NCBI RefSeq assembly: GCF_023195835.1
Contig: NZ_CP096199.1
Coordinates: 1,240,001 to 1,304,000, forward strand
From: Vibrio sinaloensis
GTDB lineage: Bacteria > Pseudomonadota > Gammaproteobacteria > Enterobacterales > Vibrionaceae
Direction of reading: 5' to 3'
Length of the DNA stretch: 64,000 nucleotides
A model generated the notes under the pieces. That model was not told the origin of the DNA and did no database searches. It saw only the letters and a list, made by a program, of their open reading frames with translations. This document shows positions 5,399 through 23,259 of this stretch, piece after piece; positions within the stretch are counted from its first letter, which is position 1; the number at the start of each line of letters is the position of its first letter. Made by a program: the position numbers and the translations under genes.

Positions 5399-6682
5399 CT
5401 AAAGTCCGGGTACTTCTATATTGGTTGAAGTCGCTATTTGGTAGTAGAGGTCCAAGTGTTCATTAAGGTGCTGGAATACTTCGTTATCCAGGAGCTGATC
5501 GTCAACCATCGGTTTAATGATTTCGACTATTTCTTGTGTTGTTAATCGCTTGCGGTAAGGCCTATCTTGTGACAAAGCTTGGAATATATCTGCGACAGCG
5601 ATAATTCGAGAAGGTAAATCTAACTCTTGCGCGGTTTTATTGTAGGGATACCCACTTCCATTTAGTCTCTCGTGGTGATTGGCAGCCCACTCGCCAATCT
5701 TTGAACATGGGAATACCATCTGCAAGGCAATTTCAGTATCAATTGTGTGGCGTTTGATATGGATGTATTCTTCGGTCGTCAATTTGCCCGGCTTGTGGAG
5801 TATGTCATCAGGCGTTCGTAGCTTGCCGATGTCATGAACAAGCCCAGAAACATAGAGCATACGTGCGGTATGCTTGGGTAAGTTAAGCCCTTGAGCTAAA
5901 TAAAAACAGAGCTCTGCAACTTTTAGAGAATGAAGGTAAGTGAACGGACTTTTAGCATCGACGATCCCCGCGATAAAGCGGCCCAATTGAATCAGGTCGT
6001 GCATCGATAAGTCTCTTTGCAGCCATTCCAAGTGAGTAAAGTGCAGAGGTATCGACTCGATATGTTCAGGCTCCATCGCAAACCAAAAGCCGTCTTTTTC
6101 AACGAGCTCATTGAGTATTTTTACGTATGCTGGACGAAACAGTGTGCCGCTGTGTTTGAGCAACTCACTTGAAATAGGGTGCTTACTTAAGGTAACGAGG
6201 TCTGGATTTTCTTCACATGAATACTGCGCACGAAGGAAATCTAGTCTATCTGAGATAAAAACTAGCGCGGCGATATCTTTTTCATAGGGAGGCAGTTCGA
6301 GAGTTTCTAGCTGTTCCCAATGTGTGTGGTGATGAAGAATAATAGGTGCGAACTTGGCCAGCAAACTGCAATTGCTCAGAGCTTGAAAACCAACAGAGCA
6401 GTGAGTTTGTACATTAGATGGTGTGATTTCACTGATTAGATTTTTGTGTTCATTCGTTTGTGAAACACCACAGTCATGAATTAGCCCTGCCAAGAATGTA
6501 AACTCTTGCTTTTTTATTGGCCAATTTAACCTCTTAGCACATTCATACGCGATATATGCGACCCGATGATTGTGGTTGATGTCATCAATCCCGACGTAAT
6601 CCAGAGCGCGCGCCACCCAAATCAACGCGTGCTTGAGATCCACAGAAAATGAATCAGCAATTTTTGATTTTATTTGTTCCAC
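5399..6682 (-). CDS. HD-GYP domain protein, probable c-di-GMP phosphodiesterase
   Basis: The product is 427 residues and cytoplasmic. An N-terminal HD domain (His69-Asp70 in AGLIHDCG, then HHHTHWEQL) is followed by a C-terminal HD-GYP domain with His283-Asp284 (GLVHDIGKLRTP) and the signature HHERLNGSGYP at 336-346, then DIFQALSQDRPYR. The HD-GYP signature is complete, so hydrolysis of c-di-GMP is expected. The start is GTG with AGGA a few bases upstream; no in-frame ATG near it fits better. There is no receiver or PAS domain, so the input may come through the first HD domain. The same window encodes a LapA-like adhesin, whose class is controlled by c-di-GMP; a direct link is speculation. Confidence 0.9.
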   Translation of the reverse strand: MEQIKSKIADSFSVDLKHALIWVARALDYVGIDDINHNHRVAYIAYECAKRLNWPIKKQEFTFLAGLIHDCGVSQTNEHKNLISEITPSNVQTHCSVGFQALSNCSLLAKFAPIILHHHTHWEQLETLELPPYEKDIAALVFISDRLDFLRAQYSCEENPDLVTLSKHPISSELLKHSGTLFRPAYVKILNELVEKDGFWFAMEPEHIESIPLHFTHLEWLQRDLSMHDLIQLGRFIAGIVDAKSPFTYLHSLKVAELCFYLAQGLNLPKHTARMLYVSGLVHDIGKLRTPDDILHKPGKLTTEEYIHIKRHTIDTEIALQMVFPCSKIGEWAANHHERLNGSGYPYNKTAQELDLPSRIIAVADIFQALSQDRPYRKRLTTQEIVEIIKPMVDDQLLDNEVFQHLNEHLDLYYQIATSTNIEVPGL

Positions 6683-6881
6683 TGACGTCCTGCCTTGAAC
6701 TGATAGCTATATAATTTTTCTATCTTTTCAAAGACTAGTTGACCATGGTGCAAATACCAGTGACGTTGCTCAAACTTACAGTATTAAATTTGGTAATTTG
6801 TAAGCAGCATGTTGAAAGGTAGCGCCACGGCGATCACTGGATCACACTGAGGCGCTAACCAGTCAGTAGATTTCTAATTCT

Positions 6882-8765: not shown

Positions 8766-9166
8766 TTTTTGCTCCAGGGTTTTTATCTCTAGTATCAGGA
8801 ACAAGCGGCGAGAGAGTTTTTCGCCACCTAGCCAACGCGAAATAGACGCGTACAGCAGACTATAGACACCCTAAACGAGGCAGCGATGCAGATTTGGCTG
8901 AAATATAAACCAAGTCGCATATATACAACTTTAGATTGAGCGATTGGTAAATAAGCATGTGTTTTGTGGAATTGTCATCAAAAAATGTTGATTAAACGGC
9001 AAATAGCAACTAAATCTTCTTTAGTTAACTCAGTTGCATATCGCTCTGAGTCTCTTGGCTGGGTGACTGCTTGGTTGGCAATGATGAAATCAGTTCAAAT
9101 AACAACGATAACAACCAAACATCATTCTAATTTGACGTTTAGGCTCGCTTACGTGTGAGGTATAGG
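8766..9166. other. Intergenic region between decarboxylase and chemoreceptor
   Basis: These 401 bases must hold the divergent promoters of both neighbours. A small hairpin AACTAAA/TTTAGTT is visible near 9008-9026, along with low-complexity AACAACGATAACAACC-like sequence near 9100. No convincing gene is seen. Confidence 0.5.
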
Positions 9167-11059
9167 ATGACTTTAGGCTTTAAATCGAGGATATATATTG
9201 GCGTTGGTACGCTCGTCGCTGTGTCACTGATTGTGTTGGGAACCCTGAACATCTTGGCTATGAGAGATAAGATGGTGCAAGGTTTGGTTTCAAAAACAGC
9301 CGACAAACTCAGTTTCCACGTAGCGGAACTTGAGCAGATGATGACCTTTAAAATGGATGCAATTGAAAAAGGCGCCGAGAGTTTCAACCTGTCACTGAGC
9401 GACAGTGATAATCAGAGGATGGTCTCACTACTGGCCGACAGTGCCTCAATATCTAATGTCATCATGACCTATGAAGATGGCCGGAGCTATATGTCTTTGG
9501 ACGGGACTAAGTACGATTTTCGTACTCGCGGCTGGTATCAAGAGGCAAAGAACGCGACTTCAGTAACGTTGACCGGTGTCTATCAGGACCAAGTCACCCA
9601 AAAGCAGGTGGTAAGTGTGACCATGCCGGTACGACAAAACGGCGAGTTCATTGGCGTGTTATTGGGTGATATTCAATTGGGCGACGTGATTACCTCGGTC
9701 AGTAATATGCGTTTTGCTGGTGGCGCTGCGACGTTGACCGATAACAATGCCGTTTTTTTCGCTAGCGACGATCCTAACGATATCGGCAAAACGCCTTCAC
9801 AAATTAGTTCAAACTTCGCTGAGATGGAGCGACTGTTTTTTGCAGAGCAATCAGGCCACCTCACATTTCCATACTTGGGTATTCAATTTGATGGTTACTT
9901 TGAAAGAGTCAATCTGACCCCCGATATGTATTGGACTTTGATGGTGTTCGTCGATCAAGCATCGGCTCTAACCGATGTCTACTCTGCTATGTATGAGTCT
10001 GTTGCGACGGGAGGCATCTTGCTCTTAGTTAGCTGCGCAGCAATTTTTGCGATATTGCACTATGCGTACCGACCTCTTCTGAGATTGAAGTCTGCGGTAC
10101 TTGACCTGTCTCAGGGCAATGGTGATCTCACTCAACGTTTACAGGTTGAAGGACAAGATGATCTCGCTGAGATAAGTAGCGGGTTCAACCAATTTGTCTC
10201 CAATCTTCAACAGATGATGTTACAGATCTCGCAAGCTAGCCAAAACATTTCAGTCAGCGTCAAGCAGCTTGGTGCTAACGCTCGCGAGAACGAAAATATG
10301 TTGATGACACACTCTAGCGAGACAGAGCAGGTGGTAACCGCTATTACTGAGATGAGTGAGAGCGCACGAACCGTCGCTGAGAACGTCAATCAATCCAATC
10401 GAATTACCGACGCTGCGAGCAAAGAAGCTGAGTCTTCTTTGGCGATTGTGAACAATGCAGTGAGTACGGTCAGCGCGCTGGTCACCGAAGTTGAAGATAT
10501 GTCGAATAGTATTTTGCGCATGAATCAAGACGCGAACAAAATTAGCAATGTGCTTAATGTCATTGGTGAGATTTCAGAGCAAACCAATCTACTCGCCCTC
10601 AATGCGGCGATAGAGGCAGCGCGCGCTGGTGAGCAAGGGCGTGGTTTTGCGGTTGTTGCTGACGAAGTGCGTGCTTTGGCTGGACGTACGCAAAATAGTA
10701 CGATGGAAATATCCGATATGCTCAGCCAGTTGCTTGGCGGAACCGAGGGTGTAGTTAAAGCGATGGACTCAACGAAGAGGCAGTGCCAAGAAACCGCAGA
10801 AAAAACCGCTGAAGTGTCGGAGAGCCTGACATTGATGAGTGGTTCGGTTAAAGAAATCGATGACGTTAGTACCCAAATCGCGGCCGCCACGGAGGAGCAA
10901 AGCACCGTCGCAGAAGAACTAAGCCGCAATATGCTGTCGATTAGAGATATCGTCGAATCACTTGTGACTAGTGGTCAGCAAACTGTTCAGGCAACGGAGC
11001 TGCTGAGTGAAACTAATGACGACCTTAAACGCCAAGTGGCGAACTTCAAACTGAGTTAA
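9167..11059 (+). CDS. Methyl-accepting chemotaxis protein with double-Cache sensor
   Basis: This is a 630-residue inner-membrane chemoreceptor. It has an N-terminal membrane segment (about 8-30), a periplasmic dCache domain with typical [11 protein letters not shown] and [20 protein letters not shown], a second membrane segment around 282-302, a HAMP domain with [12 protein letters not shown], and a long signalling coiled coil whose hairpin tip [20 protein letters not shown] is intact. It should bind a small ligand in the periplasm and control CheA. No C-terminal CheR-docking pentapeptide is seen. ATG 9167 has GAGG 6 bases upstream, whereas the longer frame starts at a GTG overlapping that site. 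A terminator follows, so it is monocistronic. The ligand is unknown. Confidence 0.94.
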
Positions 11060-11077
11060 CGAAACACAGTAATGATC

Positions 11078-11120
11078 AGGGCCGGCTCAGCAAAAACAAT
11101 CGCTAAGTCGGCCCTTAATT
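11078..11120 (+). terminator. Intrinsic terminator of the chemoreceptor gene
   Basis: AGGGCCGGCTCAGC pairs with GCTAAGTCGGCCCT (one mismatch, one G-U pair) around a 10-base loop, followed by TAATTGTTTT. Confidence 0.8.
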
Positions 11121-11176
11121 GTTTTCGATAGCTTCATCTGTAAGCTTAGGGCAAGCTTCGACTTTGATTGCCTTTA

Positions 11177-12115
11177 CTAAAGCTGCTTGTTCAGCCAGGT
11201 GATGATGGCTTGGTTGGTTTGTTTGGGGCACTCCTGCTGCAGCCAATGGCCACCTTTGATGCTGGTCACCTCCACATTGGGGACATATTGCTTCAGAGTG
11301 GGGGATTGAGGAATGACATCTAACTCACCATAAATCATCAACGCAGGTTGGCGCACTATTGGGTCAATATCGGCAAGTAAATGCCAATTTCTGTCGAGGT
11401 TACGATACCAATTAATGCTTGCTGTGAAGCCAGACGCTTCAAAAGCGCGAGTAAATACTGACAGCTCCTGCTCTGACATTAAGGGTTGCCCCTGTGGGTT
11501 TTCAGCCAAAGCGAGATTGATCATCTCCATCCCATCTCCTGGAGCGACTGGTGGCAAATTCGTGCGATACAAATTATGCAAAAAACGCTGTGTGTTCGCT
11601 TCTAATACGCTATCTGCTACGCCAGGTTGTCGATTAAAGTGAACGAAGTAGTAGTCTTTGCCAAGCACCATTTCCATCCATTCAATCCATGGTGTGTCTC
11701 CGCGCTCCTGATAGGGCAAATTGAGATTGACGATGTGACTCACTCTTTGGGGATGGATTAAAGCCAACCACCATATCAACATCGCGCCCCAGTCATGGCC
11801 AATGAAAGTTGCCTTATCATATCCGTAGTAGTCCAGCAGACCGACAAGATCGCCACACAAGTGTTCGACATCATAGTCTTCGATGCTATCTGGGCAAGAA
11901 GAGTTACCATAGCCTCGTTGGTTGGGAACGATTACGTGGTAACCCTCTTCAACGAGAGCGGGAATCTGATAGCGCCAGCAATATGCGTGCTCCGGCCAGC
12001 CATGACATAGAACAATCGGCTGCCCTTTGTTTTGTTCTCCTGCTTCAAAGACTTCGAGTGTCACCTTGTTTACCACAATCTGTTTAGATTGAGGAAAATG
12101 ATTGGATTGATGCAT
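11177..12115 (-). CDS. Alpha/beta hydrolase, epoxide-hydrolase/haloalkane-dehalogenase type
   Basis: This is a 312-residue soluble alpha/beta hydrolase. Visible marks are the oxyanion motif HGWPE, nucleophile Asp108 in FIGHDWGAM (Asp rather than Ser, as in epoxide hydrolases and dehalogenases), an acid candidate in YGELDVIPQ and catalytic His290 in KGGHWLQQE. HGWPE together with a GHDWGA nucleophile elbow favours soluble epoxide hydrolase. The open frame runs 45 codons further upstream, but ATG 12115 has AGGAG 7 bases before it. The divergent WYL-domain regulator next door is a natural candidate for its control. The substrate is unknown. Confidence 0.87.
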   Translation of the reverse strand: MHQSNHFPQSKQIVVNKVTLEVFEAGEQNKGQPIVLCHGWPEHAYCWRYQIPALVEEGYHVIVPNQRGYGNSSCPDSIEDYDVEHLCGDLVGLLDYYGYDKATFIGHDWGAMLIWWLALIHPQRVSHIVNLNLPYQERGDTPWIEWMEMVLGKDYYFVHFNRQPGVADSVLEANTQRFLHNLYRTNLPPVAPGDGMEMINLALAENPQGQPLMSEQELSVFTRAFEASGFTASINWYRNLDRNWHLLADIDPIVRQPALMIYGELDVIPQSPTLKQYVPNVEVTSIKGGHWLQQECPKQTNQAIITWLNKQL

Positions 12116-12272
12116 TGCCCAACTCCTGAGTTTAAAAGTACCAATATTTCGACGCTGCACAGTGCTCATCCCTGGTATTGAAAAAGAGCATAGAAGGAAG
12201 CTGACAACGTTTGGGCATTTATATAGTCTAATGGTGACAAAACATGACACCTTTAATGGCTAACCTGACACA

Positions 12273-12992
12273 ATGAATATTCGACAAAGGCAAGAAGCCC
12301 TGATGCGTAGCTTACGTCGTGGCGGCACGACAACCGCTACGGCTTTAGCGGAAGAGCTTGGAGTATCAAAGCGCACGATACTAAGAGACTTAAGTTCACT
12401 ACGCGACCAAGGCGTTGTGATTGAGTCAGAGCCGGGGCGTGGAGGTGGTTTGCAGCTCGACCTTCGTTCACTACAAACGACCATCACGCTCTCGGTGGCA
12501 GAAGTGTTTGCTCTGCTTATCAGCGTGACCTCGATGTATGCAACAGGGGGACTTCCGTTTAGTGGTGTAGCAGACCGAGCATTAGAAAAAATAGAACAGG
12601 CACTGCCTCAAGAAAAGTTACATGATTTGCGAAGGTTACTCGAATGTCTTTATGTCGGGGAGTTAGCGAAACAGGTAGATGTTTCAAATATTGGTCAGAT
12701 GCATCCTGACTTGCTGCCTGTCTTTGAGCACGCTTTTCTCAAGCAAAACTGTATACGTTTTGAGTATTGTGATGTGAAAGGAAATATCACTCAGCGTCAG
12801 GTCGAGCCGCAAGCGATGCTGATTCTACCACCGCTATGGTATTTGGTTGCTTGGGACCCCGCGCGCAGAGACTTCCGTCATTTCAGAATGGATAGAATCA
12901 AGGTTCCCGAAGTCGTAGAAAGTGAGACGTTTCTGCGTAAACCTATCCCATTCGACTCCCACGTTTCCCCAGCAAGGAATATGGTACGTTGA
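12273..12992 (+). CDS. HTH/WYL-domain transcriptional regulator (YafY-like)
   Basis: This 239-residue DNA-binding regulator has an N-terminal DeoR/HTH_11-type winged helix (about 5-60; TATALAEELGVSKRTILRDL, GRGGGLQL) and a C-terminal WYL domain with the literal motif PLWYLVAWDPARRDFRHFRMDR. WYL domains bind small or nucleic-acid ligands and switch the regulator. The gene diverges from the epoxide-hydrolase-like gene, so regulation of that promoter is likely. There is no good Shine-Dalgarno site before ATG 12273, so the mRNA may be leaderless or have a short leader. Confidence 0.88.
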   Translation: MNIRQRQEALMRSLRRGGTTTATALAEELGVSKRTILRDLSSLRDQGVVIESEPGRGGGLQLDLRSLQTTITLSVAEVFALLISVTSMYATGGLPFSGVADRALEKIEQALPQEKLHDLRRLLECLYVGELAKQVDVSNIGQMHPDLLPVFEHAFLKQNCIRFEYCDVKGNITQRQVEPQAMLILPPLWYLVAWDPARRDFRHFRMDRIKVPEVVESETFLRKPIPFDSHVSPARNMVR

Positions 12993-13129
12993 CCTTGATC
13001 TTGTACTTGTAAACTGAGTAACTTTCTATTTCTCGGCGCTGGTTAGCTTTCGCAAAAAGTAAGATAGGGTAAGCGAGAGTGTTACCCCGATCTTGCTTAC
13101 AGGTAGCGTAAGTTACGAATGAAACAGTG

Positions 13130-14023
13130 CTAACTTTGAGTGATAGGCAAAGCGCTTACTGAGTGTTGTGGTTTCGCAGGCTTTACGATCAGCCCAATAC
13201 CAATCAGGAACAGTGCACAGGCTACGACTTGAGCAACGCTGAGAACTTCGTCATACATAAGGTAGCCCGAGATCAGCGCAAACACAGGAACAAGCAACGT
13301 CAGTGGTGCGGTTGTGCTTAGCGGGTAGCGGATCAACAGTCGGTTCCACACCCAGTAGCCAAATAGTGTGGTTGGGTAAGCTTGAAAGAGAACGGCGACG
13401 GTTGTACTGCTATCCCAAACGTCAAATGCATGGGTGACGATGCCCGGGCCATGCAGACTGACCGCAAACAGTACCAGTGGAACTGGCGCAAACAGCATTC
13501 CCCAAACATTAAAGGCAAACGCTTGTGTGGTTTTGGACGCTTTCACTATCATGCCCATGATCGTCCAACACGATGCCGCTATCATAATAAAGGCTAGGCC
13601 TTTAGCGGTAATGTTGCCATTGGTAGCGAAAACCAAAATCAGTAGCGCCGTCATAGCGATCATAGCCCCGGTAATCTTACGTTTGGATGCTATCTCTTTG
13701 TGGATGAAAACACCGACCGCCATGCTGATTAGGGCATTGGATGAAAGCAAAACCGATGACATACCCGAAGAGAGACCAGCGGTAATTGACCAGGACGCCA
13801 TGCCCCAGATGCCTACGCCAAACACGATGCCGTAGCTAATGAGGTAGCGCCAAGCCACTAGCGGTCTGCGAATAAAGAAGATCGCTGGTAAAACAGCGAG
13901 TGAGAACCTTGCTGCCGTTGCCAAGAGTGGGTGAACTTCGGTGATGCCCATTTTGATCATCGAGAAGTTGAACCCCCAAATAGCCATCACAAACACCGCT
14001 AAAAATAAATCGTTTCGTATCAT
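13130..14023 (-). CDS. EamA/DMT-family exporter
   Basis: This is a 297-residue inner-membrane protein with about ten hydrophobic segments in two EamA repeats, typical of drug/metabolite exporters for amino acids or related metabolites. Characteristic stretches are FVMAIWGFNFSMIKMG at the N-terminus and PLTLLVPVFALISGYLMYDE in the second repeat. ATG 14023 is preceded by GGGAG at 8 bases. It diverges from a MocR-type regulator, and repeated GTACAG motifs lie between them, so it is very probably the regulator's target. The exported substrate is not known. Confidence 0.9.
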   Translation of the reverse strand: MIRNDLFLAVFVMAIWGFNFSMIKMGITEVHPLLATAARFSLAVLPAIFFIRRPLVAWRYLISYGIVFGVGIWGMASWSITAGLSSGMSSVLLSSNALISMAVGVFIHKEIASKRKITGAMIAMTALLILVFATNGNITAKGLAFIMIAASCWTIMGMIVKASKTTQAFAFNVWGMLFAPVPLVLFAVSLHGPGIVTHAFDVWDSSTTVAVLFQAYPTTLFGYWVWNRLLIRYPLSTTAPLTLLVPVFALISGYLMYDEVLSVAQVVACALFLIGIGLIVKPAKPQHSVSALPITQS

Positions 14024-14062
14024 AATTGTACTCCCTTACTGTTGAAAAGTAGTATTGACCGA

Positions 14063-14112
14063 GTACAGTTGTCGGTACAGATACAATTTTTCAATTAAAA
14101 AGAAGTACAGTT
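14063..14112. promoter_or_regulatory. GTACAG direct repeats between EamA and MocR genes
   Basis: GTACAGTT at 14063, GTACAGAT at 14075 and GTACAGTT at 14105 are direct repeats, 12 and 30 bases apart. MocR regulators typically bind direct repeats in the divergent region beside their target. The third copy ends 7 bases before the mocR ATG, which suggests autoregulation. Confidence 0.6.
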
Positions 14113-14119
14113 TCTTGTT

Positions 14120-15505
14120 ATGAGCATTTACAGAGCGATGGCAAGTCAGTTTATTCGTGAAATCGAGTCGGGCAAACTGCCACAAGGTAGCCGTATGCCC
14201 TCACTCAGGCAGCTTTCAAAACAGCAGTCTGTGAGTATGTCGACGGCCGTCAGTTGCTATCAAGAGTTGGAATCACAAGGGTGGATTCATGCTCGTCCTC
14301 AAGCTGGGTATTACGTGTCGGCTCGTCAAAGCCAGCATCGAAAACCGCAAATCGTGCAGTTTGTTAGCAAGGTTTCGAGCGTTGACCAGAACTATGCCGT
14401 TCTCTCTGATTACCATGGGCCGCTTGGCGTCTCTAGCACCGATATTGATCAACAAGCGTTAACAGAGCTCGAGCGCAGCTTTCGCCGAGCAAGTAAGCGC
14501 TTAGGCAATAGCCGACTCAACCAATATCCCAATACTCAAGGTGAGCCTTCATTACGAGACGCGCTGAGTGTCCATTTTGCCAAGCTTGGTCTGCACATTA
14601 ACCCAGCAGAGTTGGTCATCACTTCTGGTTGTATGCCGGCAATTAAGTCTGCGCTGGAGTCGTGCACTCAAGTGGGGGATGCGATAGCGATCAGCTCACC
14701 ATGTTTCAGCGGTATTTTGGATTTACTGGGAAAAATGGGCCGGAAGATTATTGAGATCCCTTCATTGGAAGATGGCATCGACTTGGCTCAGCTCGAAATG
14801 CACCTCAGACAAGGTAGTGTCAAAGCAGGGATCTTTTGTACCTCTCACATGAATCCTCAAGGTATCACCATGTCAGCCCAGCAAAAACAGACGTTGGCTG
14901 AGCTCGCTAATCACTACCAAGTGCCGATTATCGAAGATGACGTTTATTTAGAGCTTTCTTACTCCGAGCACACCCCCTTGCCGGCTAAGTATTATGACCA
15001 AGGCGGCTACATCTTGTGGTGTGGGTCAGTGTCAAAAAGCCTATCGCCCAGCTACCGTTTAGGCTGGTGTTTGCCTGGTTGCTATATCGAGCGTTATCGA
15101 CAGCAACATACCGCGTCAAACTTTGGTGTGTCGCTGCCTACACAGCTCGGCATTGCAGACTTTATTGAGTCAGGGCATTACGCTAAACAGTTAAAACGTC
15201 GTCGCGCCAAACTGCTTAATTTGAGGCAGGCTTATCTTGGTTTTCTTACTGAGCGTTTGCCTGAGAAGGTCAACATCAGTAATCCTCAAGGAGGAATGGT
15301 ACTTTGGTTACAAGTCCCTAATCTAGACACAGAAAAGTTCGAATCTTTGGTGACAGAGAATCAGATTGATATTCGCTTGGGAAGGTTGTTCAGCACGCTA
15401 TCGCTATACAATGATTGCCTAAGAATCAATATGGGCTTTGAGCTAACCCCAGAGGTCAACGCAGAGCTCGTAAAGTTGGTCGAGGCGATCAAGCAAGCGA
15501 GTTGA
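14120..15505 (+). CDS. MocR-type regulator (GntR HTH fused to aminotransferase fold)
   Basis: This 461-residue regulator has a GntR winged helix (about 1-75; LPQGSRMPSLRQLSKQQSVS, followed by a helix ending near ARPQAGYYV) joined to a fold-type I aminotransferase domain. The PLP region is visible: VITSGCMPAIKSALE, IEDDVYLELSY and the SVSKSLSPSYRLGW lysine motif. Such proteins bind PLP or an amino-acid adduct and control nearby transport or vitamin genes. The divergent EamA exporter is the likely target. The gene ends 11 bases before the first 63-bp repeat bounding the accessory island. Confidence 0.92.
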   Translation: MSIYRAMASQFIREIESGKLPQGSRMPSLRQLSKQQSVSMSTAVSCYQELESQGWIHARPQAGYYVSARQSQHRKPQIVQFVSKVSSVDQNYAVLSDYHGPLGVSSTDIDQQALTELERSFRRASKRLGNSRLNQYPNTQGEPSLRDALSVHFAKLGLHINPAELVITSGCMPAIKSALESCTQVGDAIAISSPCFSGILDLLGKMGRKIIEIPSLEDGIDLAQLEMHLRQGSVKAGIFCTSHMNPQGITMSAQQKQTLAELANHYQVPIIEDDVYLELSYSEHTPLPAKYYDQGGYILWCGSVSKSLSPSYRLGWCLPGCYIERYRQQHTASNFGVSLPTQLGIADFIESGHYAKQLKRRRAKLLNLRQAYLGFLTERLPEKVNISNPQGGMVLWLQVPNLDTEKFESLVTENQIDIRLGRLFSTLSLYNDCLRINMGFELTPEVNAELVKLVEAIKQAS

Positions 15506-15516
15506 CCGAATGAAGA

Positions 15517-15579
15517 ACTAAGTTTCAGTAAGTTGAAGAGAATTGAGAGTGTTTTTGAGGGCTCAAAAACGGTGAAACC
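15517..15579. repeat. 63-bp direct repeat, left copy
   Basis: This block matches 20356-20418 at 62 of 63 positions (one T/C difference). It contains a 9-base inverted repeat GTTTTTGAG/CTCAAAAAC around GG, and shorter outer complementary arms GTTTCA and TGAAAC. Together the two copies frame a 4.8-kb region. It could be an attachment-site duplication or two members of an intergenic repeat family. Confidence 0.85.
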
Positions 15580-15682
15580 TAAGGTTAGTAATGAGCATTA
15601 GTTCGAACTGCTCAAGTGGTATCAATGCGTTCAAGGATACATTTGAACATAAACGTGTTACGTCAAGAGCTTGTAAGACAAA

Positions 15683-16153
15683 TCAGTCACACAAGCTTGG
15701 GTCTAATACATATGTTCGGCTTAAGGATTTTAGTGTGAGTTCTCGCTGAGATATACATTCGATGTAGTTATATTGGTCTATTTTTTTTCTGATGCTGTTA
15801 TCCAACCATATAGCAGAAACAACACTGCTCATCACCACTATCGCTACAGTATATAGCCCTGCTTTCGTTGAAAATGGTATTTTTATTAATAGCTCCGTTG
15901 ATGGGTGGAGCATAGCTAAGGGAATGATCGTTATAACCCCAAATATTAGAAAGCCGACAAAAGAAGCGATATTGTTCAATAACCCTGCAATTCTTACTTT
16001 GGGAACTGTACCAATTAAATTGTTAATACCGACTAACTCATTAATTGAGCTGTAACTCAACCAAACCATAAAAACCATTACAGGCCAACTAAGCATTACT
16101 TTTAGCCAATGTTTTCTCTTTAACTTTCGATTAAATTCGATACTAGAAACCAT
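15683..16153 (-). CDS. Uncharacterised membrane protein, 156 residues
   Basis: This small inner-membrane protein has three clear hydrophobic segments (about 18-36, 60-83, 98-117) after a basic N-terminus (RKLKRKHW), and a cytoplasmic or periplasmic tail of about 40 residues ending in RTYVLDPSLCD. The family is not firmly recognised; the tail is reminiscent of DUF1240-like proteins. ATG 16153 lies inside the end of the upstream truncated gene (overlap ATGGTTTCTAG), so the two were translated as a coupled pair before the IS arrived. Base composition is AT-richer than the flanking chromosome. Its expression now may depend on the IS. Confidence 0.6.
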   Translation of the reverse strand: MVSSIEFNRKLKRKHWLKVMLSWPVMVFMVWLSYSSINELVGINNLIGTVPKVRIAGLLNNIASFVGFLIFGVITIIPLAMLHPSTELLIKIPFSTKAGLYTVAIVVMSSVVSAIWLDNSIRKKIDQYNYIECISQRELTLKSLSRTYVLDPSLCD

Positions 16154-16290
16154 CAATCGTTTTCTCGATTTGCTTTTTCATGGGGTCAGTGAACTTAAAT
16201 TCATCATCTAGTCTGGATATTTCCTGTCCAACTATAAACGCACTAACAGCGAAGACTCCGAGTGTTAAGGCTGTTGGCGACCCAGTAAAT
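16143..16290 (-). pseudogene. 3' fragment of a gene cut by the IS256-family element
   Basis: Reading leftward out of the IS, the frame ELFTGSPTALTLGVFAVSAF continues with IVGQEISRLDDEFKF and ends at TAG 16143, about 49 residues. It has a hydrophobic stretch and a charged C-terminus, and its last codons overlap the start of the downstream membrane-protein gene. No matching 5' part is evident beyond the other end of the IS. The family is not recognised. It is best read as the tail of a gene lost by insertion and deletion. Confidence 0.6.
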
Positions 16291-17580
16291 AATTCTGTGT
16301 AACTGTCGGGGTTACATGTATTCAGTGAGTCGGTCTTCGAACATAATCATAAAGCGGTTTAGAGCTTGTCGCCAGTTTCTAATCGGCATCGTCCACTTTT
16401 TGGAAGCATCTCGGATAGCTAGATAGATAACCTTTCGAGCTGACTCATCCGTTGGGAAGAGCTTGCGCTTCTTAATCGCTTTTCTAATAACGCTGTTGAG
16501 AGATTCAATGGCGTTAGTCGTGTAAATGGCTCGGCGAATATCCTCTGGGTAGTTAAATAGGGTGTTGAGGTTGTCCCAATGCGCCGTCCAAGAGCGGCTG
16601 ATTTGAGGATACTTACTATCCCATCGGTCAGAGAGCTGCTCTAGAGCCAACAGAGCCTCATCTTCTGTGGCTGATTGGTAGATTTTCTTCAGGTCAGTCG
16701 TCACCGCTTTGTAGTCTTTCCAAGGGACGTATTTGACCGAGTTTCGCACCATGTGGACGATACAGAGCTGTATTTGCGTCTCTGGGAACGCAGTGTTAAT
16801 GGCGTCAGGAAAGCCTTTTAGCCCGTCAACGCAAGCGATAAGGATATCTTTTACCCCTCGGTTTTGAAGCTCCGTCAGCACGTTAAGCCAGAATTTGGCA
16901 CCTTCCGTTTCAGAGAGCCACATACCGAGCAGTTCTTTTTGGCCTTCCATGTTGACGCCTAACGCAAGATAGACCGCCTTGTTGATGACGTGCTTGTCTT
17001 GACGCACCTTAACCACAATGCAGTCTAGATAGACGATAGGATAAACCTCGTCGAAGGTCGCGATTGCCATTCAATCACTTGCTCCAGCACCGAATCGGTG
17101 ACTTTTGATATCAGCGTTGGTGAGACGTCTGCGTCATACATTTCCTTGAACGTTGCGACGATTTCACGTGTGGTCATGCCTTTCGCGTACAAGCTCAATA
17201 TCTTGTCGTCCATGGATTGGAATCGAGTTTGGTGCTTGCGGACGAGTTGAGGTTCAAAGATCGCTTCACGGTCGCGAGGGACGTCGATATCGACTTCTCC
17301 ATCATCGGTGATGATTGATTTACCCGAGTAGCCATTGCGGGAGTTGGTGCTGGTTCTGGATTGAGGTTTTTGATATCCAAGGTGCTCATCGAGTTCAGCG
17401 TTTAACGCCGTTTCAACGGTCACCTTGATTTTCATTTTTCGGAAGTCATCAAGATCAGATTCTGTCTTAATTGACTTTGCTGCTTCACGAGCAAAAGCTT
17501 CGAGTGCTTTCTTATCCATATTGTCCATCCTTAGCCTTTAAGGCTTAAGTCTAGACAGTTACACAGAATTCGGGACACTC
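16291..17580 (-). mobile_element. IS256-family insertion sequence (about 1.28 kb)
   Basis: The perfect inverted ends AATTCTGTGTAACTGTC (16291-16307) and its complement (17554-17570) enclose an IS256/Mutator-type transposase. On the right, the sequence GAGTGTCCCG (reverse strand) extends the end outward, as expected of family termini, but the left end lacks it. No 8-9-bp target duplication is visible. The left outer terminus is therefore probably lost, with adjacent host DNA deleted. Confidence 0.85.
16312..17519 (-). pseudogene. IS256-family transposase, frameshifted
   Basis: Two overlapping frames make one transposase. The N-terminal part (from ATG 17519 or 17528) includes LDEHLGYQKPQ, SRNGYSGKS and FQSMDDKILSLYAKGMTTRE, ending in EWQSRP. 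The C-terminal part carries DDE-type landmarks: VYLDCIVVKVRQD, LIACVDGLKGFPDAI, IQLCIVHMVRNSVKYV and IYTTNAIESLNS. The break is at about 17048-17056, where restoring one base after CCT would give EWQSRP-LDEVYP. IS256 elements are not known to need frameshifting, so this copy is probably inactive unless the base is a sequencing error. ATG 17519 has AAGGA 8 bases upstream. Confidence 0.88.
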
Positions 17581-17676
17581 TCAAGCAAAGCAAAAACCTA
17601 TTTTAGTGAAACGACACAAACAGCCAAAGTTGTGACTTGCCATGCTTTCTAATTAATCACCTTTGCTATTGATATT

Positions 17677-17700
17677 AGCCCCTTGATTGGGGCTTTTGTT
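17677..17700 (+). terminator. Orphan intrinsic terminator
   Basis: AGCCCC/GGGGCT with a 6-base loop is followed by TTTTGTTG. It faces rightward, but no intact + strand gene precedes it, so it may belong to a gene lost next to the IS. Confidence 0.55.
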
Positions 17701-17734
17701 GTTTGTAAAGCTCTTGTTTTCAGTTAACGATTAT

Positions 17735-18142
17735 TTACTTGTTATTTAAGTGCTTTTGTATGACTTGGTCAATTTCCGCTAATAAAGTTAGCTCTTTTTC
17801 ATTGCGAGCTAATAGACTGTCCCACATTTTAAGCATGGATGCTTTCGCTACAGGCTTTCCACCTAATTTTCTATCGTAATCAGAAAGTGGAAATAATTGC
17901 AGGATGCTAATATCAAAGGCTTTGGCAACAGCACAAAGATCAGAAAAAGTAAATTGACTGTCTGCTTCTCTGTCTAGTTTTGCGTAAACTGAGCTGCGTG
18001 GTAAATGCGCGTGGCTTGCCAATTGCCCTCTTGACCACTTTTTATTCGCCATTAAAAACTCTATTCGCTCAATAAGCATGGCACGCAGCTCTCTGTCTGA
18101 AAAGCCGAAAAATTCGTATCCTTCACTCTGCAATTCTGGCAT
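17735..18142 (-). CDS. XRE-like helix-turn-helix regulator
   Basis: The product is 135 residues and cytoplasmic. A Cro/C1-type helix-turn-helix spans about 25-75 (KKWSRGQLASHAHLPRSSVY, then FTFSDLCAVAKAFDISILQLFP), with a polar C-terminal tail. AAGG lies 7 bases before ATG 18142. The gene diverges from the secreted serine hydrolase across 116 bases, and a small palindrome overlaps its own ribosome-binding site, so control of both genes is plausible. It is AT-rich like the rest of the island. Confidence 0.82.
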   Translation of the reverse strand: MPELQSEGYEFFGFSDRELRAMLIERIEFLMANKKWSRGQLASHAHLPRSSVYAKLDREADSQFTFSDLCAVAKAFDISILQLFPLSDYDRKLGGKPVAKASMLKMWDSLLARNEKELTLLAEIDQVIQKHLNNK

Positions 18143-18143
18143 G

Positions 18144-18156
18144 TCTAAACCTTAGA
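18144..18156. promoter_or_regulatory. Palindrome TCTAA-ACC-TTAGA at the XRE gene start
   Basis: This perfect 5-base inverted repeat lies one base upstream of the XRE start codon and covers its Shine-Dalgarno site. A related half-site, TTTAGATTC, occurs near 18182. It is a candidate operator for autoregulation. Confidence 0.4.
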
Positions 18157-18258
18157 TTTTTACGGTTATTGCTGTACAAAATTTAGATTCTTTGCTTCGT
18201 ATACTAACAATCACTGACACAGAGTCCAATTAATTTAACCAGAATAGAGGAATTGATT

Positions 18259-19530
18259 ATGAACACGTTAACTAAATTATCACTGGCATGCGCTTTATCA
18301 TTCTCAAGTGTAGCTGCAATTTCTGCACAAGCTCCTGATGAATTACGTCATTTACCTGCTCATGCGCATGAGCTTCGCGGTAATCCTTATGGCGATTTTG
18401 CTAGCAGTTGGCAAAATGCTCCCTATAACACTTCTGTTTACCAGCAAGTGAATCGTCTTATTCCTACGGCAACGGTTTGGCGTGGAGATGCTGAAGAGAG
18501 TCAATTTGAATATCAAAAACAGGATCTAAGTGAAATTCAATACACTAACGTGAAAGGGGAAAGTGAAACCTTTGCTGAATTATTAGAGCGTACGTTTAGT
18601 GACGGGGTGTTGATTCTTAAAGATGGCAAAATAATCACTGAGCATTATTTTAATGGTATGAAGCCACATAATCGCCATCATTTAATGAGTAGCTCTAAGT
18701 CATTAACTTCAACCTTGTTTAGCACCTTTATTGATGACGGCAGCGTTAAGTTGGATGAAATGGTCACAACTTATGTTCCTGATGCCAAGAATACGGCTTG
18801 GGAAGGAGTAAAGGTTATTGATTTACTCAATATGACTTCAGATGTTCAGTATCGCGAGGAGTTTGATAATCCTGATGCTGAAGTATGGGCACATGAGTCT
18901 GCGGTTGGCTGGCGAAATGTAGGCGAAGGTCGCCCTTCGACAAATCGTGAGTTTTTATACTCTATGAATAAAATGGACAGCCCTGATGGGTTATTCCATT
19001 ACCGCTCGTCTGAGACTGACATGCTTGGACAAATTATGGAAAACGTATCAGGTATTGGTACTGCTGAATTATTTAGCCGTCGCATTTGGTCAAAGTTAGG
19101 TGCGGAAGAAGACGCGCAATGTTTAGTTGACCGCGAGGGGGCTTGTGTTGTGATGGGAGGTTTTGGCACTACCTTACGTGATTTAGGTCGCTGGGGACAA
19201 ATGATTGCCAATAATGGTTACTTTAATGGTCAGCAAATTATTAGCAAGGCTTGGGTGGATCGTATTACTCATGGTGACGCGGATAAATTCAAGCACTATA
19301 AAGGTATGTTGCCAAAAGGGGCGTATTCAGCACAGTTTTGGGTAACGGATAATGAACGCAACATTACCTCAACATTAGGTTATGGTGGTCAGCAGGTGTA
19401 TATTGATCGTGATATTAACTTAGTGATTGTTCGTTTATCTTCATGGGATAAGCCTGATTACAGTTATGCAACAGATAGTTACAAGGCTATGGAAGCAATC
19501 TCTAACCATTTCAGAGATGCTAGCAAGTAA
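18259..19530 (+). CDS. Secreted serine hydrolase, beta-lactamase/6-aminohexanoate-dimer hydrolase-like
   Basis: This 423-residue precursor has a signal peptide (MNTLTKLSLACALSFSSVAA, cleavage near AISAQA). The class C beta-lactamase/DD-peptidase fold is marked by the SxxK motif in HHLMSSSKSLTSTLF, a Tyr-containing second motif FHYRSSETDMLGQ and a late GYGGQQ in place of KTG. Related proteins hydrolyse esters, amides or nylon-type oligomers; true beta-lactamase activity cannot be assumed. ATG 18259 follows AGAGG at 8 bases; the frame also has a TTG two codons upstream. Codons are AT-rich (many TTA leucines), unlike core genes here, which suggests transfer. It is followed by its own terminator. 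Confidence 0.86.
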   Translation: MNTLTKLSLACALSFSSVAAISAQAPDELRHLPAHAHELRGNPYGDFASSWQNAPYNTSVYQQVNRLIPTATVWRGDAEESQFEYQKQDLSEIQYTNVKGESETFAELLERTFSDGVLILKDGKIITEHYFNGMKPHNRHHLMSSSKSLTSTLFSTFIDDGSVKLDEMVTTYVPDAKNTAWEGVKVIDLLNMTSDVQYREEFDNPDAEVWAHESAVGWRNVGEGRPSTNREFLYSMNKMDSPDGLFHYRSSETDMLGQIMENVSGIGTAELFSRRIWSKLGAEEDAQCLVDREGACVVMGGFGTTLRDLGRWGQMIANNGYFNGQQIISKAWVDRITHGDADKFKHYKGMLPKGAYSAQFWVTDNERNITSTLGYGGQQVYIDRDINLVIVRLSSWDKPDYSYATDSYKAMEAISNHFRDASK

Positions 19531-19544
19531 CCCATTGTACTGTT

Positions 19545-19566
19545 AGGCATCCTTAGGATGCCTTTT
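19545..19566 (+). terminator. Terminator of the serine hydrolase gene
   Basis: AGGCATCC, loop TTA and GGATGCCT are followed by TTT. The stem abuts the stop codon of the convergent LysR remnant. Confidence 0.8.
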
Positions 19567-19782
19567 ATAACTCTACAAACTGCTCTACAAACTGCTCTAC
19601 AAACCATAATCCCGCAGGGCCTAAAGAGGGTGACCAAGCGAGCTCTATCGGCCAGCTGGTTTGTTCATCTTCAAAATCAACTTGCAGTTGTTTTACTTCT
19701 TTATTCGCGATTGGTAGTGCCAATAACTGTTCCGGGAAATAAGCAAAACCGATACCTGATAATAATGTAAACCAATAGGGTC
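19565..19782 (-). pseudogene. C-terminal remnant of a LysR-family regulator
   Basis: On the minus strand an open stretch of about 72 codons reads PYWFTLLSGIGFAYFPEQLL and continues with PIELAWSPSLGPAGLWFVEQ before TAA at 19565. This is the typical last part of a LysR effector-binding domain (GIGFAYFPE). There is no start, helix-turn-helix or upstream half, and a stop lies directly before the fragment. The extreme end carries a 12-base tandem repeat (CTCTACAAACTG) that encodes VEQF repeats. It may once have controlled the serine hydrolase. Confidence 0.72.
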
Positions 19783-19954
19783 AGGTCTTGTCTTTTGCTT
19801 TTTGGTGGCAGTTTTTCTATCAGGTTTAGCTAATTGTCATACCTGAAATTATTAGTCATTTGCTAATGTTTGATTTTCCAAAACTCATTTCTGTCCAGAA
19901 ATGATTTAGAGTCTCAACTTCAACTTAAAAAGTAAGCAGCTACGAATAAGTTCT
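19783..19954. other. Non-coding junction next to the LysR remnant
   Basis: The sequence TCAGGTCTTGTCTTTTGC begins exactly where LysR homology stops. It resembles the sequence bordering REP/RAYT or other small transposon-derived elements, from memory only. A hairpin CATTTCT/AGAAATG lies near 19886-19903. No gene is seen. Confidence 0.35.
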
Positions 19955-20092
19955 CTAGTCGTGGCTGAAATCTTCCATTGCTTCGTCAAAGTCTATCTCT
20001 GTATCAACCAGTTCCGCCAACTCATCTGCATGTGCTGTATGAGCATTTAATCCTTCGAGTAGCTCTTGCTCGGAAAAAGTCTTTTTATCCAT
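19955..20092 (-). CDS. Tiny acidic protein, 45 residues
   Basis: ATG 20092 is preceded by GAGGG and encodes a strongly acidic peptide (SEQELLEGLNAHTAHADELA, ending FDEAMEDFSHD). The LLEGL..TAHADE pattern faintly recalls the acidic tail of MazE/AbrB-type antitoxins, but there is no DNA-binding domain and no toxin gene beside it. It could be a stand-alone small protein or an antitoxin remnant. Confidence in the reading frame is moderate; function is unknown. Confidence 0.45.
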   Translation of the reverse strand: MDKKTFSEQELLEGLNAHTAHADELAELVDTEIDFDEAMEDFSHD

Positions 20093-20355
20093 TTCTGTAG
20101 CCCTCACTAGTAAGCGATTTGATAGAAAGTATATCACTGATGTGGGAATTACTCGGAAACCGTTTAGAGGCTCTTTGAGGTATTTTCAGATATGTTCTAG
20201 AGTAAAGAATAAAGTAGGGGAAGCAGGGCAGTGATTTGAGTCGTGGTGAAAATGGGTCTAAGATAGTTGAGAGAGAAACTATTGTATAAGTCCACTATTC
20301 GTCCACACTTAATCCACCCAAAAATGATGTGGTTATAGAGGGGTTGAGTAAAGTG

Positions 20356-20418
20356 ACTAAGTTTCAGTAAGTTGAAGAGAATTGAGAGCGTTTTTGAGGG
20401 CTCAAAAACGGTGAAACC
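20356..20418. repeat. 63-bp direct repeat, right copy
   Basis: This is the second copy of the block at 15517-15579, in the same orientation. Its last bases GAAACC run into the stem of a terminator below rplY, whereas the left copy is followed by unrelated sequence. The identity therefore stops at a functional chromosomal element, as expected for an integration target. Confidence 0.85.
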
Positions 20419-20450
20419 CCGATGTTGGTAGCATCGGGGTTTCGAATTTT
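20414..20450. terminator. Strong hairpin terminator between the island and rplY
   Basis: AAACCCCGATG and CATCGGGGTTT form an 11-base perfect stem with a 7-base loop, followed by CGAATTTTT on the plus strand. On the minus strand it lies about 80 bases beyond the rplY stop and could also end that transcript. Confidence 0.75.
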
Positions 20451-20528
20451 TAGATGTCTCGGTTGGTAAGGCCGATTATCTTATATGCAAAAGGCTGGAT
20501 TTAATCCAACTAATTCCTTGGTAGGGAA

Positions 20529-20807
20529 TTAGATGCGGATGAAGTCCATGTGCTCAACTTTTGGCTTGAACGCGTGACGTTGAACGTCTTGTGGCTTAAC
20601 CTTAACTTCAGCGCCGTCAATCACTAGAGTGATTGCTTCGTAGAATTCTGGCTTGTCCATTTGGTTCATAACTTCATCGTGGTTAAGAACGATTGCAACT
20701 GCTGCTTCTTCACCGCCGTATACAACTGCAGGGAATTTACCAGCGTGACGTAGGCGGCGGCTCGCACCTTTACCTAGTTCAGTACGTACTACTGCTTCAA
20801 ATTTCAT
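20529..20807 (-). CDS. rplY: 50S ribosomal protein L25
   Basis: At 92 residues this is close to the 94 of the short E. coli-type L25, which binds 5S rRNA in the large subunit. [20 protein letters not shown] and the C-terminal [13 protein letters not shown] are characteristic. ATG 20807 begins the conserved sequence and follows AGAGAG; upstream in-frame codons lack family similarity. It is a stand-alone gene of the core chromosome and marks the right boundary of the accessory island. Confidence 0.96.
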
Positions 20808-21204
20808 AGTATGACTCTCTAAAAAGAAATTGAGTTTATACATCCGCAATGCGACCTTGCGGATATCAAGCGCTTAGAAGAAATTGGTAGTAACTCCATA
20901 AGCGAGCGCGGATACTATCATTGTATCCCTTTTGTCGCAACTCAAAATCCAGCAATAGCGTGTTTTGACGTCAAATATAATCAACGGTTTGAGCCTAATT
21001 TGCCTGCTAGCAGCCTATTGTTCAATCCAAAAAACTTGCCTGCGAGTAAAATGCTGCCTACGGATAGGCAAAAGCTTGCTTGATAAGTGGCTGAGAAACG
21101 CTGTAAGTCGCGGTTATCGGCCGTTTTCTGATTGGCGCTATCTTTGCAGTGTCGCGTAGATTGATTGAACAGTCTCTCCTTCGTGAGTAAGTAAAGGACG
21201 CATT
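20808..21204. other. Divergent control region of rplY and vgrG
   Basis: These 397 bases carry the promoters of both genes. A palindrome-like TTTGACGTCAAA sits at about 20963-20974, and AAAGGA lies before the vgrG ATG. No supported gene is seen; a 64-codon frame here has no ribosome-binding site. Confidence 0.5.
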
Positions 21205-23259
21205 ATGGCAACGCTGCATTACCAGATAAAAATTGATGGACTAGATGACAACTCACTCGTGGTTCGGCAATTTACTGGTACTGAGTCTATTTCCTCATCT
21301 CAGTTAGTGTCAGACGCTGAATGCATTGGCTATCGATACAAGATTGATCTCGCGAGTAGAAGAAGCAATCTGCACCAAGACGAGATTGTTGATAAAAAAG
21401 TACAGTTAGAACTCTATAAAGACAATGCGCTGCAACGCGTGATTCATGGCATTGTTCGTCAGTTTACTAAAGGGGACACTGGCCATCATCACACCTTTTA
21501 TTCTGTGGTGTTAGTGCCGGAGTTAGAACGACTTTCACTGCGTCACAACAGTCGAATCTTCCAATTTCAGACCGTTCCCGACATCGTGTCAATTCTGCTT
21601 CAGGAGATGGGTATCTCTGATTACGCTTTCGCACTGAAGCATGACTATGTCGAGAGAGAGTACTGTGTCCAGTATCGAGAAAGTGACCTCGAGTTTATTC
21701 ATCGTTTACTCGCTGAAGAGGGAATGAGTTACTACTTCTTGCACGAAAGTGGCAAACACACTGCTGTGTTTTGTGATTCCTCCGAAGCCTTGCTCGAATT
21801 TGAATCCCCGATTCTGTACAACTCGACTTCTGGTGGTAGCGAGGTGTATCAGCATGTTTCTAGTCTGGTTGAAACCAAAAAGACTCAAGTTAGCCGAGTG
21901 ACAATGGGTGACTACAGCTTTAAGAAACCAGACTATCGTTTTTTGCAGCAAAGCCAGGCCAGTGGTATTGATTATCAAGATACCGAACTTTATGAGCATT
22001 TCGAGTTTCCCGGGCGCTACAAACAAGATTCAATCGGATTGGCGTTTAGTCGCGCACGGTTGGAGCATCTGCGCAATATGTCACACACGGGCTGGGCAAA
22101 AAGTAACCATCTGCAAATGCAGGCGGGAAGCAAGTTTCAATTAGAAGACGATATAGAGAACTTTTCTACGCGGTATTGGCAGGTGGTCAACATGTCTGTG
22201 TTTGGTACTCAACCTCAGGCTTTGCAAGAAGAAGGGGGAGAGGGTTCCACAACTTACAGTAACGCTTTGGTGCTTATTCCTGCCAATCTCACTTGGCAGG
22301 CGGAGCCTAAGTCCAAACCCAAGGTAGATGGGGCGTCAGTGGCTATGGTAGTCGGGCCAGAAGCTGAAGAGATCTACTGTGATGAACATGGTCGAGTGAA
22401 AGTCCATTTTCCATGGGATCGCTACTCAAACGGAGATGAACAAAGTTCTTGTTGGGTTAGGGTGTCTCAAGGCTGGGCCGGCTCCCAGTATGGGATGTTA
22501 GCACTGCCTAGAGTGGGGCAAGAAGTGATTGTGTCGTTTCTAGAGGGTGACCCTGATCAGCCGATCATTACTGGTCGTACTTACAACGCCGCTAATGTGC
22601 CGCCTTACGAGCTGCCAGAACACAAGAGCAAAACGGTATTTAGAACCGAGTCACATCAAGGTAGCGGATTTAACGAACTCAGTTTTGAAGATCAAGCAGG
22701 CAATGAGCAGGTTTATATTCACGCGCAAAAAGACCTAGAGACTAAAGTTCTCAATGATGCGATCACACACGTTAAGCAAGATGATCATATTCAGATTAAT
22801 AATGACCAGTTTCAGTCAATCACCAATAACCAACACAGTGTGACTCAATCCGAATCTAGAATATCGGTTAAGGGTACCTATTCTGACATTACGCAGCGAA
22901 GCTTAGAGCAGAAAATCGCCACCGTATTGGTCGCCCAAGCCGGAAGAGAAATATCACTGAGTAGCGGCGCCAAAGTAGTGGTGGAAGCTGGCGCAGAAAT
23001 TACCCTTAAAGCTGGAGGAAGTTTCGTTAAAGTGGATGGCGGAGGCGTACACATCGTTGGTCCTGCCATCAACTTAAATGCGGGCGGTAGTGCCGGTTCG
23101 GGCAGTGCTTACGCTGGAGTTGCCCCGACGTTACCGAATCAAGTCGAAGCACCTCAAGCCCCCAATGTGTCGAAAGCAGTCAGCTATCAAGCGCTTCTAA
23201 AAGCAGAGCAGTCGAGTGTGCCCGCCGTTAAGCCTTGTCCGTTATCAGGAGAGGCGTAA
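21205..23259 (+). CDS. vgrG: Type VI secretion tip protein VgrG (TssI)
   Basis: This 684-residue trimeric spike protein caps the Hcp tube and carries effectors. The gp27-like part spans about 1-380 (YCVQYRESDLEFIHRLLAEE, GMSYYFLHESGKHT). It is followed by the OB/gp5 region (DEHGRVKVHFPWDRYSNGDE, SCWVRVSQGWAGSQYGMLAL, PRVGQEVIVSFLEGDPDQP) and the beta-helix repeats near 560-630. There is no C-terminal enzymatic extension, only about 55 residues rich in Pro/Ala, so this is a cargo-carrying VgrG. AAAGGA precedes ATG 21205. Its stop overlaps the adaptor start (TAATG), so it heads the effector operon. No structural T6SS genes are present nearby, making it an auxiliary cluster. Confidence 0.96.
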   Translation: MATLHYQIKIDGLDDNSLVVRQFTGTESISSSQLVSDAECIGYRYKIDLASRRSNLHQDEIVDKKVQLELYKDNALQRVIHGIVRQFTKGDTGHHHTFYSVVLVPELERLSLRHNSRIFQFQTVPDIVSILLQEMGISDYAFALKHDYVEREYCVQYRESDLEFIHRLLAEEGMSYYFLHESGKHTAVFCDSSEALLEFESPILYNSTSGGSEVYQHVSSLVETKKTQVSRVTMGDYSFKKPDYRFLQQSQASGIDYQDTELYEHFEFPGRYKQDSIGLAFSRARLEHLRNMSHTGWAKSNHLQMQAGSKFQLEDDIENFSTRYWQVVNMSVFGTQPQALQEEGGEGSTTYSNALVLIPANLTWQAEPKSKPKVDGASVAMVVGPEAEEIYCDEHGRVKVHFPWDRYSNGDEQSSCWVRVSQGWAGSQYGMLALPRVGQEVIVSFLEGDPDQPIITGRTYNAANVPPYELPEHKSKTVFRTESHQGSGFNELSFEDQAGNEQVYIHAQKDLETKVLNDAITHVKQDDHIQINNDQFQSITNNQHSVTQSESRISVKGTYSDITQRSLEQKIATVLVAQAGREISLSSGAKVVVEAGAEITLKAGGSFVKVDGGGVHIVGPAINLNAGGSAGSGSAYAGVAPTLPNQVEAPQAPNVSKAVSYQALLKAEQSSVPAVKPCPLSGEA

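Follow-up and report, generated by a model that had tools for sequence, protein, structure and literature searches.

Lambda-type integrase modules combine a two-armed attachment site (attP), a core with dyad symmetry, and genes for an integrase (Int) and an Xis-like protein beside one attachment (att) site. The same layout is found in a family of Vibrio islands, a remnant of which is described here from a 64,000-nucleotide stretch of the Vibrio sinaloensis genome (hereafter the window; contig NZ_CP096199.1, G000:C1:1240001-1304000 in our numbering), where it lies between 63-bp direct repeats next to rplY, the gene for ribosomal protein L25. Unlike in the lambda system, the target of this family is the Vibrio rplY terminator, and its integrase has no arginine aligned to R212 of lambda Int.

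Other described elements resemble the family in part. The intY/tmRNA islands of Pseudomonas and VPI-1 also possess a tyrosine integrase, a conserved site, direct repeats, and putative defence cargo, but, according to PMC12595487, their site is the 3′ end of tmRNA, the core measures 14 bp, and AlpA lies at the far end. The dusA/yicC elements of Vibrio likewise have a dedicated integrase and a directionality factor and preserve the function of their target, whereas, according to PMC8409611, they use other targets and are mobilised by IncC plasmids. The hotspots of V. europaeus (PMC12824646) are chromosomal spots with exchanged defence islands; they are numbered in the main text, and one of them could be the rplY site. 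Neither “rplY” nor “L25” occurs in the main text of that paper or in the main texts of PMC12595487, PMC11630473, and PMC6360697, while PMC7982893, in its accessible part, names L25 only as a secreted protein. The rplY papers found concern Pectobacterium and Burkholderia, and one of the Pectobacterium papers, in the part available, treats rplY as a virulence determinant. A search of open-access full text gave no paper pairing rplY, an integration site, and a tyrosine recombinase; supplements, subscription journals, and most preprints lie outside the scope of that search, and an earlier description may exist. The element is of a known kind, and its attachment site and family did not turn up in the open-access text search.

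It is proposed here, with a probability of about 90%, that this part of the window belongs to an integrative family of Vibrio islands, with the rplY terminator (3′ end) as their insertion site, and that it survives as a sedentary remnant. In intact members, a lambda-type tyrosine recombinase (~420 aa, with an arm-binding N-terminus) and a 76-aa Xis-like protein are encoded beside the distal core. Recombination of attP with the attB at rplY would leave a core at both ends, and rplY would be left with a whole terminator, the element bringing its own copy of the terminator 3′ half. The copy in the window has lost its integrase gene, Xis gene, and left-arm site by deletion between short imperfect repeats, one lying in the core and the other where the integrase gene ends; an IS256 copy and foreign cargo now occupy its interior. 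At the level of sequence, one can rely on the core at both ends, the relatedness of the ends to intact islands, the deletion junction, the empty sites in relatives, and the lack of a match to this integrase in the genome. The action of Int and Xis on the core and arm sites, and the inability of this copy to excise by itself, are predictions.

Direct repeats and the attachment core

The two copies of the repeat (15517-15579 and 20356-20418) lie in the same orientation, 4839 bp apart from start to start, and agree in 62 of 63 bases, the sole mismatch being T at 15550 against C at 20389. The block occurs at only these two places in the 4.17-Mb, 2-contig genome (E<=0.001), which rules out a scattered element, and a match of this length cannot be of chance origin. 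The repeats are the predicted attachment sites of the island. An earlier sequence-only reading of the window had described such blocks, 4.8 kb apart, had noted their internal dyad symmetry, and had supposed that the right copy merges into the rplY-side terminator as an integration target might. All of this has held up: relatives carry the core at both island ends, empty sites exist, and a single-strand fold of 20370-20531 (minus strand) forms the terminator hairpin followed by the hairpin of the att dyad (z -6.76).

The att core is GGTTTCACCGTTTTTGAGCCCTCAAAAAC. It overlaps both the rplY terminator (3′ half) and the dyad that follows. The functional core would be shorter than the repeat, 29 bp strictly and ~42 bp with the terminator half, and the repeat reaches 63 bp because of right-arm-like sequence on its outer side and a deletion on its inner side. 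In a comparison of rplY loci, cores with at most two mismatches were found to begin 112-116 bp beyond the final sense codon of rplY. The terminator 3′ half, CTACCAACATCGG, precedes the distal core in the islands of other species; the element carries this half, and therefore rplY keeps a complete terminator. A search of 15000-21300 against Rfam gave nothing that reached its gathering score; at E<=1, rnk_pseudo (28.3 of 55 bits, E 0.11) and IS009 (22.1 of 117 bits, E 0.048) were listed.

Outward from its core, the left copy continues with the 34 bp that start the right arm and is then followed by the end of mocR. These outer 34 bp are probably a stump of an older tandem element, the alternative being the native flank of this lineage; longer truncated arms stand at the same position in four other islands (G061, G195, G025, and G077). 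Among viral contigs, there is one exact core match (IMG/VR IMGVR_UViG_2654587510_000002, L197), where core and right arm adjoin the integrase C-terminus, perhaps as a tandem or excised form.

Intact islands and empty sites in other vibrios

In other Vibrio, islands of 12-38 kb are bounded by the same core; beside the distal core, they carry genes for a lambda-type integrase and for a small Xis-like protein. In Vibrio sp. JPW-9-11-11 (G061), a 15.3-kb island lies between two cores, and its order from the distal core inward is a 76-aa Xis-like gene, a 419-aa integrase, a homologue (82%) of the window gene orf157, a second recombinase (PF12834/PF12835), cargo, and, at the rplY-side core, a homologue of the small acidic gene acid60. 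Further core-to-core lengths, each from one contig, are 27.6 kb (G018), 25.4 kb (G198), 37.7 kb (G188), 19.7 kb (G195), 17.0 kb (G164), ~12.6 kb (G025), 16.8 kb (G077, integrase broken), and 2.8 kb (G020, no integrase seen).

Of 196 Vibrio genomes, 11 have integrases that reach 74-100% identity over more than 120 aa; the G012 copy is partial and contains a stop, and that of G222 is divided between contigs. Shorter fragments occur in G029 and G077, and more distant matches in further genomes. All 11 carry the right-arm site. In each of 10 loci with xis, this gene starts at a distance of 290-362 bp from the distal core; G077, with its broken xis, and G012, without a distal core in the stretch analysed, were left out of this comparison.

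A profile of the integrase matches lambda Int in the PDB at E 2.9e-20, and lambda Int comes first by Foldseek for the integrase model (pLDDT 78.6). PF09003 is precomputed for part of the family, and in the intact relatives the homology of Int to lambda Int extends to the arm-binding domain. The putative catalytic residues K278, H365, R368, H388, and Y397 are invariant in 15 integrase sequences. At the position of R212, the first catalytic arginine of lambda Int, the G061 integrase has A231, and a neighbouring R232 occurs in P0044 and P0053 only, of the 15 (alignment columns 229-237). A search of a phage collection gave 8 integrase records, all below 60% identity. In seven plasmid records of Proteus, Morganella, and Providencia, the first 291 aa of the integrase are present at 95.6-96.6% identity, and the two plasmids inspected further (L198 and L199; Proteus and Morganella) also have xis (95-96%), the left arm, and part of att; the Vibrio element, or its source, appears to have reached plasmids of Morganellaceae.

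On the rplY side of the islands, GTGGA repeats are suggested to be putative arm-type binding sites because of their 11-bp spacing and the homology to lambda Int. The triple right-arm pattern occurs in 21 of the 196 genomes, our own included, at one place each, against 0 for a reversed-pattern control; it misses the altered arms of G020 and G077. Its offset from the core is +101 in 19 of the 21 (+104 in G033 and +79 in G023), and in 20 it lies 192-220 bp from the end of rplY; in G018, it belongs to the inner core of two stacked islands, ~21 kb from rplY. The left arm has one site, at -166 upstream of the distal core, which is exact in 9 of 10 loci and a shifted variant in G025.

An empty site is seen in V. 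crassostreae 9ZC13 (G210), where rplY and the core are followed by flanking chromosomal sequence. In the G018 array, the outer flank agrees with this site at 94.6% over the 3000 bases compared, counted from the first core base. Removal of the island from G188 gives a sequence 98.2% identical to G210 over 493 bp, with one gap and ~101 bp lying beyond the join; the identity to G011 is 97.5% (488 bp) and to G005 92.9% (493 bp). An empty site, as sought by the sequence-only reading, is thus found in relatives.

Islands may also be stacked. In G018 (L064-L066), two lie in tandem at rplY; their integrases are only 44% identical and the core next to the second one has diverged, and one target seems to serve two lineages of integrase. 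G020 has its two cores only 2.8 kb apart, and in G061, fragments of the second recombinase are found outside the distal core.

The deletion and the competing explanations

Judged by its ends, the window island is a member of this family: the left end (15571-16278) is 97.7% identical to V. pacinii (G148, C1 4882-4175) and the right end is 92.8% identical to Vibrio sp. JPW-9-11-11. In V. pacinii, the integrase gene ends with GGTGGAACC, followed by TAAGGTTAG, and the core reads GGTGAAACC; in the window, core GGTGAAACC leads directly into TAAGGTTAG. GGTGAAACC and GGTGGAACC are repeats alike in 8 of 9 bases and 1760 bp apart in V. pacinii, and the fused junction therefore points to a deletion of ~1.76 kb between these short repeats, which took away the left arm, xis, and the integrase gene. 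The deletion can be placed to within a few bases and sets the inner boundary of the 63-bp repeat. The window lacks the left-arm site at -166, an xis-like gene, and a family integrase, which makes the island a remnant rather than an intact member. No match to the family integrase was obtained at E<=0.001 in the window genome, where 12 other PF00589 matches are present. Among the options left by the sequence-only reading, which had seen no integrase, the decayed remnant is the best supported.

Several observations weigh against this picture or narrow its reach. Against whole lambda Int chains, the integrase model reaches TM-scores of only 0.30-0.32 by query, with 0.75 by target for the catalytic core 1ae9, and the lack of an arginine aligned to R212 means that integrase activity is predicted only. 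For G198 and G046, the agreement of the outer flank with the empty sites extends for only 32-182 bp at the core and then breaks up, so a clean comparison of this sort is not obtained for every island. The empty and intact sites all come from relatives, none of them from the window's own species, and the rearranged mocR flank blocks the rebuilding of the original attB of the window. The spread of the core is limited as well: the 63-bp block is matched in 28 of 148 genomes and a looser 28-base core pattern in 39 of 196 Vibrio genomes, our own included in both counts, and the rplY-side core has diverged in some genomes (by 8 of 29 bases in G025 and by 6 in G018).

It is conceivable, though rather unlikely, that the repeats are the remnants of two separately inserted tandem elements with a composite interior. 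Tandem arrays do occur, as in G018, the G020 cores, and the second-recombinase fragments of G061, and the outer 34 bp resembles an arm stump; nevertheless, the orf157 end (with the flank of the integrase end) and the acidic-gene/arm end have the place and orientation that they have in G061, where the island is single and intact, and relative to V. pacinii the left junction matches a simple deletion. Less probable again is an island that can still be mobilised in trans, with an incoming member supplying Int and Xis to act on the two cores and the right arm. In the window, the two cores and the full set of three right-arm sites have stayed intact, and the integrase is present in 11 of the 196 genomes sampled. 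Lambda excision, however, requires both arms, and the left-arm site (-166 in 10 loci, 9 of them exact) is deleted here.

An ordinary duplication, in which the rplY terminator was copied by homologous or IS-driven rearrangement without any site-specific element, is very improbable. The IS256 copy and the relocated mocR-DMT block do reveal a rearranged locus, but the integrase islands with the same core, the fixed arm spacing, and the empty sites would be left unaccounted for.

A broader proposal than the remnant itself, for which we consider the chances even, is that the rplY terminator is a genus-wide Vibrio landing site for unnamed lambda-integrase defence islands, which stack in tandem and are then fixed by module loss. 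Ten of the 21 right-arm genomes, the window included, have no family integrase at 74% identity or more over 120 aa. On this view, a short-repeat deletion as in the window would keep both cores, make the cargo resident, and leave the site usable for the next island. The odd pair of repeats becomes an address, the end of the rplY terminator, which is entered and left by Vibrio islands with defence candidates such as retron and Mokosh. Core, arms, and integrase can be used to find such islands by pattern, and the window is a base-level example of a mobile island turned resident.

Gene content, cargo, and flanking DNA

The features of the island and its surroundings are collected in Table 1.

Table 1. 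Coordinates of the island, its predicted attachment sites, and neighbouring genes in the window.
Feature	Position	Strand	Remarks
DMT transporter and MocR-type regulator pair, relocated flank	13119..15507	.	85% identical to G061:C36:431241-433629
Outer part of left 63-bp copy	15517..15550	-	equals first 34 bp of element right arm; same sequence after rplY-side core
Distal att core (predicted), GGTTTCACCGTTTTTGAGCCCTCAAAAAC read on minus strand	15551..15579	-	0 mismatches to rplY core of relatives
Deletion junction	15571..15579	+	core GGTGAAACC fused to sequence after GGTGGAACC (integrase 3′ end)
orf157, backbone gene beside lost integrase	15683..16156	-	96% identical in V. pacinii, 82% in G061; adjoins integrase in both
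IS256-family element	16291..17570	-	frameshifted transposase (ORFs 17025-17528, 16312-17070), 17-bp inverted repeats
Cargo, probable HTH repressor	17735..18142	-	PHROGs repressor matches, best E 3.5e-6, weaker others
Cargo, serine hydrolase	18253..19530	+	PF00144
Backbone right end of island	19769..20389	.	window 19769-20900 matches G061 rplY side at 92.8%
acid60 ORF, small acidic end gene	19955..20137	-	probable start 20092, 45 aa
Right-arm sites (putative), three GTGGA repeats 11 bp apart	20283..20317	-	+101/+112/+123 from core; exact in window
rplY-proximal att core (predicted)	20390..20418	-	core as found at rplY in relatives
rplY intrinsic terminator hairpin	20413..20443	-	3′ half overlaps att core
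rplY (L25)	20529..20807	-	PF01386

The island has a GC content of 41.4%, compared with 46.4% for the window, and the stretch 17571-19768 reaches 40.4%. It is bounded by 63-bp direct repeats and not by the terminal inverted repeats with a short target duplication that mark a composite transposon. The sequence-only reading had regarded everything between the repeats as acquired or broken, and the content does differ among relatives rather than being conserved. The IS256 element that it named is present, with a frameshift; no shared 6-10-mer, and hence no target duplication, was found at its edges, in keeping with a deletion on one side. The PF00144 domain bears out the serine hydrolase, whereas the supposed XRE regulator (17735-18142) has only the weak PHROGs repressor matches, no Pfam match, and one sub-cut-off NCBIfam match to a urease subunit. 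A remnant of a LysR gene was not confirmed, the open reading frame (ORF) at 19565-19723 having no Pfam match.

The nearest relatives of the serine hydrolase are from Photobacterium swingsii (76%) and Shewanella kaireitica (73%), with V. rotiferianus at 71% and V. mediterranei at 69%; at E<=1e-60, it is found in 2 of the 196 Vibrio genomes, self included. As a beta-lactamase resistance gene it was rejected, since it falls far under the cut-off of every NCBIfam beta-lactamase family listed. The tiny acidic gene of the sequence-only reading proved real: acid60 has 31 proteins, the window's own included, and all those with a source name are from Vibrio. It usually stands at the rplY-side end, as in G061 (79% identical), V. 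pacinii, and G020, with remnants in G012, G033, and G077, and G025 has a 45% match near the other island end. The motif GGGTCAGGTCTTG, near the right end of the island (window 19778), also follows mocR in G061 (L082) and is possibly a small dispersed repeat.

Four islands of the family were scanned in detail and gave matches to defence models (retron, Mokosh, TIR, and others). PADLOC assigned a retron I-B pair in G061 (E 9e-110 and 1.7e-212), MkoA/MkoB in G195 (E 2.9e-278 and 1.1e-66), PDC-S46 (E 1.5e-220) and HEC-07 (E 8e-32) in G018, and a TIR effector in G188 (E 1.8e-43). From the 140 island ORFs listed, family scans were run on a pool of 84 that came from seven islands; the pool excludes most transposases and several copies of the integrase, as well as islands G046 and G148. 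Ten of the 84, all from the four islands above, were also scanned singly; two of them had no PADLOC match and one had weak matches only. The pooled PADLOC scan, for which the 25 commonest of 163 families were listed, alone covers the other islands; it included four window proteins and gives no defence verdict for the remnant. Relaxase or conjugation genes were found neither among the window proteins scanned nor, for the 84 ORFs of relatives, among the 25 commonest of 64 Pfam families listed.

On the outer side, window 3-13004 is collinear with G061:C5:428246-441272, which lies beyond the G061 island, and the DMT-mocR block is on another G061 contig. The sequence-only reading had taken the genes on both sides for normal chromosomal ones and had proposed comparing mocR-rplY intervals across strains. 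This stands for rplY, but the mocR side has been relocated. Coordinates of both genes were available for 28 other genomes, including G061, and in each of them the best match to mocR lay on a separate contig or at a distance of over 150 kb from rplY, although the farther matches may be paralogues. DMT-mocR was therefore rejected as the ancestral neighbour of the island, and the mocR side is most likely a later rearrangement. Just upstream of rplY, the window has a VgrG gene (TIGR03361, 21205-23259), whose homologue (82.5% over 372 aa) occupies the same place in G061; a vgrG gene of the type VI secretion system (T6SS) is thus found on the other side of the rplY hotspot.

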